DNA from: a virus
Reading direction: 5' to 3' (one strand)
IMG/VR virus record: IMGVR_UViG_3300025759_009344
Location: 1 to 31,426 of that record
Length of the DNA: 31,426 nt
How positions within the stretch are numbered: the first letter of the stretch is position 1; each line of letters begins with the position of its first letter. The notes under the pieces were generated by a model, which saw only the letters and a list, made by a program, of their open reading frames with translations, did no database searches and was not told the DNA's origin. Below are positions 12,760 through 14,679 of this stretch, in pieces. The position numbers and the translations under genes are program-made.

Positions 12760-13749
12760 TCAGTTCAGTGTTTCAACGGCAGCAAGTGCTTTTTGGCGAA
12801 GGTCCTCAGGAAGAGGAACATAACCAAGAGCATCAGATTTACCTTGTGCTTCTTCACTCAACATATAACGCAGAGTATCCTTCACCGCAGCATTATTTTC
12901 TGCTTGTGGATATGCAAGTACCCAAGTCAGGGAGACGATAGGATAAGCATTTTCACCTGCGGGGTTAGCGTCAGCACCACGCAACTGAGAGTCAAGAACA
13001 ATCTTACCAAGTCCTGCCGAAGCAGTTTCAGCGGATGCTTTGACATAGTTACCTGCCTTATTTTGAAGAGCAACTTGTTGGAACTTGTCACCTGAAACAT
13101 AACCATAGTTCAGATAACCAATAGCACCATCAATTTGCTTAATCTGTGCGGCAACACCAGAGTTTCCTTTACCACCAACACCAGTAGGCCACTTCACAGA
13201 CTTACCAGTTCCAACTTTTTCTGCCCACTCAGGAGAGAAAGTAGAAAGAGAATTAGTAAATCCAGCAGTAGTGCCAGAACCATCTGTGCGATAAACAGTA
13301 GTGATTTGCTTATCAGCACAACCAAAAGCAGACCAGTTAGTAATCTTACCCAGGAAGACATCAGCAAGTTGAGTCTGAGTCATCTTGGCATCACATCCAG
13401 CAAGATTATATGCAGGAACAATTGCACCACCAGTCATAGGAATATGAACCACACCAAAATCAGGTTGGTCTGCATCCTTTACAGCACTATCAGAAGCACC
13501 AAAATCAACGGTCTTAGCAACATACTGACGAACACCAGCACCAGAACCTACTGCCTGATAGTTCACTTTGTGACCACCAGATGTAGCATAGTCTTGGAGC
13601 CAACGCTGATACAGTGGGGCAGGGAAGGTTGCCCCAGCAGCAGTCAGGTTTTGTGGTGTGAAAGTTGATGCAGTTTCAGGTGCCGAACCACAAGCAACGA
13701 GGGTGCCGCCAGTGGCGACAGCAGCGAGAGCAGCGAGAACTTTCTTCAT
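12760..13749 (-). CDS. pstS: Periplasmic phosphate-binding protein PstS
   Basis: 329 residues. Lipoprotein-like signal (VLAALAAVATGGTLVACG, Cys20). The family signature AAGATFPAPLYQRW follows, then phosphate-site segments GSGAGVRQYVAKTVDFGASD, YRTDGSGTTAGFTN and GKGNSGVAAQIK. It binds inorganic phosphate for the host PstCAB transporter. Known in many cyanomyoviruses and induced under phosphate stress. Strong ribosome site AAGGAG. It follows the barrel-like gene by 12 nt and probably shares its Pho-box promoter. Confidence 0.96.
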   Translation of the reverse strand: MKKVLAALAAVATGGTLVACGSAPETASTFTPQNLTAAGATFPAPLYQRWLQDYATSGGHKVNYQAVGSGAGVRQYVAKTVDFGASDSAVKDADQPDFGVVHIPMTGGAIVPAYNLAGCDAKMTQTQLADVFLGKITNWSAFGCADKQITTVYRTDGSGTTAGFTNSLSTFSPEWAEKVGTGKSVKWPTGVGGKGNSGVAAQIKQIDGAIGYLNYGYVSGDKFQQVALQNKAGNYVKASAETASAGLGKIVLDSQLRGADANPAGENAYPIVSLTWVLAYPQAENNAAVKDTLRYMLSEEAQGKSDALGYVPLPEDLRQKALAAVETLN

Positions 13750-13761
13750 TGTAACTCCTTA

Positions 13762-14118
13762 TCAGAACTTATACTTAGTGCCGACTTCTACTTTCCAGTC
13801 ACGATCATCTTCAAAGATCAGAGTCTCATACTTACCATAAGCAGAGAACTTCTCAGAGAGTGCGACAGAAGTGCCAAGTTCCAATGCAGTGAAGCTTGCG
13901 CTATCACCAGCATCGGGGACCTCAACACCAAAACCACCTTCGATATAGGGTTTCAGTTTACCGACCTTCCAATCATAACCAACACGACCCTGATGGACTT
14001 GCTTGGAGAAGTCTTCATCAGTGCCTTTAAATTCATGCTTGGACTCTACATAGGGTCCTGCAAGGGCAGGTGTCGCCAGTGCAGAAACTGCCAGAGCGGC
14101 AAGTGCGATTGCTTTCAT
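13762..14118 (-). CDS. Small outer-membrane beta-barrel-like protein
   Basis: 118 residues. Signal peptide (IALAALAVSALATPALA, cleavage before GPYVES). The mature part alternates polar and hydrophobic residues in strands (GRVGYDWKVGKLKPYIEGGF, KFSAYGKYETLIF) and ends in KVEVGTKYKF, with the C-terminal Phe typical of barrel insertion. It is a relative of the 14314 product. It is the promoter-proximal gene of the pstS operon. A role in passage of phosphate or in altering the host outer membrane is inference; phage P-SSM2 is remembered to have an uncharacterised gene co-induced with pstS. Confidence 0.7.
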   Translation of the reverse strand: MKAIALAALAVSALATPALAGPYVESKHEFKGTDEDFSKQVHQGRVGYDWKVGKLKPYIEGGFGVEVPDAGDSASFTALELGTSVALSEKFSAYGKYETLIFEDDRDWKVEVGTKYKF

Positions 14119-14149: not shown

Positions 14150-14182
14150 TCGAAGACCTTCTTATTATAGCAGGGTCTTCGA
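14150..14182 (-). repeat. 9-bp inverted repeat enclosing the -10 of the pstS-operon promoter
   Basis: TCGAAGACC (14150-14158) and GGTCTTCGA (14174-14182) are perfect reverse complements 15 bp apart. They flank the -10 TATAAT, so this is operator-like rather than a transcript hairpin. Confidence 0.7.
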
Positions 14183-14218
14183 GTCTTGTCGTTAATGATT
14201 GGTTAAGGATCTTTAAAA
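14164..14218 (-). promoter_or_regulatory. Pho-box-like activator site and promoter for the pstS operon
   Basis: In minus-strand order TTTTAAAG (14218-14211), CTTAACCA (14207-14200) and ATTAACGA (14196-14189) recur every 11 bp, matching the layout of cyanobacterial Pho boxes (CTTAACCT-like 8-mers with 3-bp gaps). The last repeat overlaps the -35 ACGACA (14192-14187), 17 bp from -10 TATAAT (14169-14164). A weak -35 with an overlapping activator site is typical of PhoB control. Confidence 0.7.
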
Positions 14219-14313: not shown

Positions 14314-14679
14314 TCAGAAACGATAGGTGACGCCTGCCTTAGCGCCGTAGTTGTTATCACCTTCAGCAGTCAGGAAGGAGAACTCACCGTAGACATTGAC
14401 GTTCTCGGTGACATCAACACCCAGACCTGCCTTACCGGAGAACTGAGTATCGGTGTCCAGACCATCAATAGCAACGATAGCGGGACCTGCCTGAGCATAC
14501 CAACCAGCGTTCTCACCCAGAGCGCCTTCGTAACCAATAGCGATGTCGGTTACAGTGCCTGCATAGTCGCTACCGGTGAAACCACTGTTGGCTTCAACGT
14601 TGACGTAGGGACCTGCAAACGCAGCGGTGGCCATGAAAGGAGCAGCAGCAGCGGCTGCGAAAACAGATTTGTTGAACAT
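14314..14679 (-). CDS. Outer-membrane beta-barrel-like protein
   Basis: 121 residues from ATG 14679, which has a GAGG ribosome site; the open frame extends upstream without support. Signal peptide (SVFAAAAAAPFMATAAFA, cleavage before GPYVNVE). Mature strands include TDIAIGYEGALG, GWYAQAGPAIVAI, KAGLGVDVTENVNVYGEF and YGAKAGVTYRF, with the terminal Phe of barrel proteins. About eight short strands are possible. Visibly more GC-rich than the neighbouring glycan cluster, suggesting host origin. It has its own composite promoter and terminator, so it is a single-gene unit likely made in quantity. Confidence 0.75.
   Translation of the reverse strand: MFNKSVFAAAAAAPFMATAAFAGPYVNVEANSGFTGSDYAGTVTDIAIGYEGALGENAGWYAQAGPAIVAIDGLDTDTQFSGKAGLGVDVTENVNVYGEFSFLTAEGDNNYGAKAGVTYRF

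Follow-up and report, generated by a model that had tools for sequence, protein, structure and literature searches.

A conserved Pho-box-type promoter of fixed geometry ahead of a barrel-pstS gene pair in a marine cyanophage fragment

Cyanophage phosphate genes and the barrel-pstS unit

The control of cyanophage pstS genes by the host PhoBR system was reportedly described by Zeng and Chisholm in 2012, and Kelly et al. are said to have found in 2013 that eleven cyanomyoviruses contain Pho boxes ahead of pstS or of phoA, eight of them with PhCOG173 in between. The barrel family treated here, which is listed as DUF680 or PhCOG173 in phage annotations, is presumably the PhCOG173 of Kelly et al. 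2013. The pstS gene of P-SSM2 is stated to be under host PhoBR control, and gel shifts have demonstrated that cyanophage promoters are bound by the PhoB protein of the host strain WH7803 (Rihtman 2024, PMC10976474). PMC10976474 and PMC3686209 cite the study of Zeng and Chisholm (2012) for host PhoBR control of cyanophage pstS. An earlier Pho-box scan yielded promoters that adjoin all nine pstS genes (Sullivan 2010, PMC3037559). For PhCOG173/DUF680 itself, PMC6224464 cites Kelly 2013 for a role in phosphate limitation, and PMC9146016 refers to reports that place Pho boxes ahead of DUF680. In the cyanobacterial hosts, the Pho boxes of SphR are 8-bp repeats of the type CTTAACCT with a 3-bp linker, and Synechocystis has at least three of them in tandem (Su et al., 2007, PMC1906773).

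The window, i.e., the whole stretch of DNA that was analyzed, is a virus fragment of 31,426 bases, the relatives of which are T4-like marine cyanophages. All window features described below are located on the minus strand. The first gene of the unit (13762-14118) encodes a secreted putative barrel protein of 118 aa, which matches Phage_OMP (PF24653, E 6e-39; 133 bits versus a curated cut-off of 27) and phrog_417 (E 1e-37). The second gene is pstS (12760-13749), which encodes a protein of 329 aa with a full-length match to phrog_5385 (E 2e-161, across residues 6-329) and a match to PBP_like_2 (E 1e-35). It begins only 12 nt past the barrel stop codon, and a terminator recognized from the sequence (12734-12714) closes the unit; therefore, barrel and pstS likely form one transcription unit. 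Upstream of the unit lies a paralogous barrel gene (14314-14679; PF24653, E 2e-45, and phrog_417), the relatives of which form a family without Pho boxes. Its terminator (14290-14268) insulates the Pho promoter, which sits between this terminator and the barrel start at 14118. The genes checked between 14830 and 31256 form a surface-sugar run that resembles a heptose/LPS-type cluster in phage (a GHMP kinase, a weak SIS match, a cytidylyltransferase, glycosyltransferases of families 11 and 25, a methyltransferase, and a DegT aminotransferase).

The locus PSSM2_247-pstS (PSSM2_248) of P-SSM2 is organized like that of the window: the arrangement box-3-box-19-TATAAT is followed by the barrel and then by pstS, a barrel paralogue lies upstream, and the two barrels are 48% identical. 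However, P-SSM2 has neither the distal TTAA-TATATA array of the window nor its 9-bp inverted repeat at the -10 element. The glycosyltransferase-barrel-barrel-pstS-phoA cluster of S-SM2 represents the same neighborhood, but it includes phoA after pstS, and its promoter, like that of S-SSM4, fits the layout less well. With PhCOG173 (DUF680) of the cyanomyoviruses the window shares the family and the gene order; in comparison to that description, about 100 loci were used here to quantify the precise spacing and how the paralogous barrel family differs. The 8-bp repeats and the 3-bp linker are those of host Pho boxes, but the phage promoter has two good boxes instead of three. A scan of genome contigs for host pstS promoters and their -10 spacing returned only one phage-like locus, L243 (CAJXMP010000220.1), binned in an uncultured Lewinella genome. 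It encodes a cyanophage-type PstS that is 74% identical and is probably misbinned phage DNA.

Tandem Pho boxes at a fixed distance from an extended -10

The original prediction placed three Pho-box-like repeats at 11-bp intervals ahead of the barrel gene, the last of which overlaps a weak -35. The positions and the octamer starts hold, but only the second and the third repeat score as Pho boxes. Box 2, CTTAACCA (14207-14200), is strong with 9.1 bits, and box 3, ATTAACGA (14196-14189), at a distance of 11 bp, is fair with 5.0 bits; both are kept in relatives. They are direct 8-bp repeats near the cyanobacterial motif with a 3-bp linker, and they are placed, as expected for Pho boxes, in the promoter of a phosphate gene. 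Box 1, the weak upstream repeat TTTTAAAG (14218-14211), does not reach background level with its score of -2.1 bits, and the distance from its TTAA core to the core of box 2 is 10 bp instead of 11 bp. The weak score and the register shift of 1 bp argue against reading it as a true Pho box. A TTAA 10 bp upstream of the pair is present in 23 of 99 relatives, and thus box 1 is weakly conserved; in the relatives as well, only two boxes are strongly conserved. The extended -10 TGcTATAAT (14172-14164, with TATAAT at 14169-14164) lies 19 nt past box 3. The predicted overlap with a weak -35 was recovered, as the candidate ACGACA (14192-14187), at 17-bp spacing to the -10, overlaps box 3. The 19-nt spacing between the boxes and the -10 is not that of E. 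coli Pho boxes, for which 10 bp are stated (PMC1906773).

The scoring matrix was derived from 23 triples of host Pho boxes that Su et al. (2007, PMC1906773) list and that comprise predicted as well as known sites. The three box scores and the comparison of the triple with shuffles stem from a first version, which was based on 9 of the 23 triples. A triple of such a score is expected about 1.3 times in a sequence of the size of the window, and a better one was found in 71% of the window shuffles. The bare triple is therefore not significant in a 31-kb window and was dropped as evidence. On its own, it would be compatible with TTAA repeats that have arisen by chance from AT-rich intergenic DNA, combined with the -10 of an ordinary phage early promoter that is not under phosphate control. 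The tandem pair, in contrast to the triple, is rare when the 150 nt around it are shuffled (p = 0.0016), and none of 5000 promoter shuffles matched the pair combined with a -10 at a distance of 19 nt. When distances of 18-20 nt are allowed, this combination is the top site of the window and was matched by none of 200 whole-window shuffles. The Pho-like site that ranks second in the window (20100-20058) consists of TTTAACCT ttt CTCATCCT with a TATAAT 18 nt further on; it is located within the preceding reading frame, just ahead of a gene that weakly matches the SIS domain.

For the comparison with relatives, 78 pstS loci were fetched from IMG/VR, together with 80 loci each for relatives of the barrel and of its upstream paralogue, and duplicates were removed. 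All 90 distinct barrel-pstS promoters contain, within 150 nt, a tandem pair that scores 8 bits or more, versus 14% of shuffles, and the median pair score is 12.7 versus 4.8; these loci share ancestry, and the counts do not represent independent events. In 54 of the 90 promoters a -10 follows exactly 19 nt past the pair, while the next commonest distance occurs five times. When all spacings were scanned, the median joint score peaked at a box spacing of 11 and a distance of 19 (17.1 versus 2.4 for shuffled sequences). An alignment of 79 promoters yields approximately the consensus nTTAACyT-3-CTTAA(A/C)(G/T)A-19 nt-TATAAT, with TGt directly before the hexamer, and the TG of the extended -10 is kept at about 90%. 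The boxes and linkers vary in sequence among the relatives, whereas the spacing is constant. The same layout, with 19 or 20 nt, is present in the cultured phages P-SSM2, P-SSM7, S-SSM5, S-E7, and S-SCSM1, and S-B64 has the layout as well.

The relatives of the paralogue that are not followed by pstS (n=96) behave differently, as their median pair score of 3.4 equals the shuffled level, and the layout is absent before the paralogous barrels of P-SSM2, S-SM2, and S-SCSM1. A chance origin of the repeats is extremely improbable in view of the constant 11-bp and 19-bp spacing over diverged relatives and of the absence of the layout from the paralogous family and from window shuffles. In the podovirus P-SSP2 (L242, 2941-3300), a gene of this barrel family immediately precedes psbA and has no Pho boxes. 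The generalization that every cyanophage barrel gene has Pho boxes is ruled out by this gene and by the paralogous group.

Host PhoB and the distal elements

The original prediction attributed the promoter to host PhoB, and this is the best reading: the boxes match host sites, and the layout is conserved in relatives and missing from the paralogous barrel family. Judged from the sequence, it is highly probable that the promoter is activated by host PhoB (SphR) and drives barrel and pstS. The boxes, their spacing, the -10, the gene order, the terminators and the conservation are direct sequence observations in support of this regulation, whereas PhoB binding, induction, and any role of the barrel are inferred. 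In an infected cell that is short of phosphate, phosphorylated PhoB would bind to the direct repeats CTTAACCA and ATTAACGA and, positioned over the weak -35, would recruit the major RNA polymerase of the host to the extended -10. Barrel and pstS would be copied as one message that ends at the terminator behind pstS. PstS would then raise phosphate capture for phage replication, and the co-induced barrel would probably be its partner in the outer membrane. Points against this reading are the poor first repeat, the 19-nt distance to the -10, the predicted host sites in the matrix, the weaker fit of S-SM2 and S-SSM4, and the finding that some marine Synechococcus do not contain SphR (PMC1906773).

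Two further elements had been overlooked in the original prediction. The first is a distal tandem TTAA array, GTTAAAAT taa GTTAAGTG (14259-14241), which reads CTTAACTT aat TTTAACCA on the opposite strand and thus is a near-consensus Pho pair. It is followed at a distance of 11 bp by the element TATATACCAAGG (14236-14225), the sole match in the window, and the whole distal array (14259-14225) is 52 bp from the proximal pair. In relatives, the array TTAA-N7-TTAA lies just past the upstream terminator, with TATATA 11 bp on and then AGGTTTGT. The TTAA pair is found in 41 of 96 relatives and the TATATA part in 46 of 96, with a strong preference for the spacing of 11, and TTAA cores occur 44 bp and 55 bp ahead of the proximal pair, each in 23 of 99 loci. 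The distal array may represent further in-phase PhoB sites, or another promoter. The second element is a perfect 9-bp inverted repeat, TCGAAGACC/GGTCTTCGA (14182-14174 and 14158-14150), which flanks the -10. Arms of at least 7 bp around the -10 are present in 23% of the relatives, versus 8% when the arms are swapped between loci, and the repeats differ in sequence.

The distal array with its TATATAnnnAGGTTTGT is not a textbook Pho promoter, and direct repeats are also used by OmpR-family regulators. Therefore, the TTAA arrays might be bound not by PhoB but by another regulator of the OmpR family with similar sites, encoded either by the phage or by the host. This seems very improbable, because the boxes match the host Pho consensus, they are linked to pstS and, in S-SM2, also to phoA, and PhoB control has been published for pstS of P-SSM2 (PMC10976474).

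The barrel protein and the phosphate response

If host PhoB activates the promoter, the barrel would be part of the phosphate response, as had been proposed from its position as the first gene of the operon. This is in agreement with its place in the two-gene unit and with phages that have kept the Pho promoter and the barrel without pstS, so that, as far as sequences can tell, the phosphate control of the barrel is well supported. In the tree of the family, 85 of 89 pstS-linked barrels fall into one clade, the support of which is only 0.52, together with eight others, several of which are cut by contig ends. The loci L140, L141, and L146 have a Pho-type promoter and a barrel without a recognizable pstS behind it, L146 with an apparent remnant of the pstS start, and in S-B64, a cultured phage, a Pho-type promoter likewise precedes a barrel that has no pstS behind it.

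The Pho promoter might nevertheless serve pstS only, with the barrel as a passenger in between that has no role in phosphate supply. The putative barrel has no assigned function, and in one locus, L183, the Pho boxes and pstS seem to have been retained while no intact barrel is present. This explanation is rather unlikely, because the barrel is the first gene in nearly all loci, the pstS-linked form is a separate clade, and the four pstS-less loci indicate that the barrel itself is worth inducing. The same three observations make it likely that the barrel is controlled for its own sake.

An AlphaFold2 model based on 80 sequences (mean pLDDT 85, about 93 in the mature part; pTM 0.70) contains a signal-like helix, six long strands forming a sheet or barrel, and a C-terminal Phe, and the model of the paralogue also has six long strands. 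The closest solved folds are OmpX (TM 0.62), OmpW, and other outer-membrane barrels, all of them weak matches, none with an E value below 0.001, and a search of the PDB found no sequence relatives. The predicted barrel has two strands fewer than OmpX, which has eight. To our knowledge, the known monomeric outer-membrane barrels have more than six strands, so that, judged from this monomer model, the protein may form an oligomer or an open sheet that a partner completes. A further-reaching and quite doubtful idea is that the Pho-induced six-strand barrel forms an oligomeric pore in the outer membrane which admits phosphate to the periplasm for the co-expressed PstS, under a promoter set by PhoB sites phased at multiples of 11 bp, with the distal array 55 bp upstream in many relatives. 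If true, the phage would build a phosphate route across two membranes.

The promoter of the window is a further example of an already described host-phosphate control, and its arrangement is real and widely conserved. Added to prior knowledge are the promoter geometry, the way in which the paralogous family differs, and the predicted six-strand barrel; the latter is less explained, as are the distal phase-locked TTAA array and the inverted repeat that flanks the -10. The sequence evidence indicates that, very probably, this marine cyanobacterial virus uses the low-phosphate alarm of its host to turn on a small outer-membrane-type protein and PstS. Across about 100 distinct loci, phosphate genes of ocean cyanophages appear to be tied to the phosphate sensor of the host by a promoter of fixed geometry, which marks the small barrel protein, unlike its adjoining paralogue, as a conserved part of the phosphate response and can be used as a search pattern for other phosphate-controlled phage genes.
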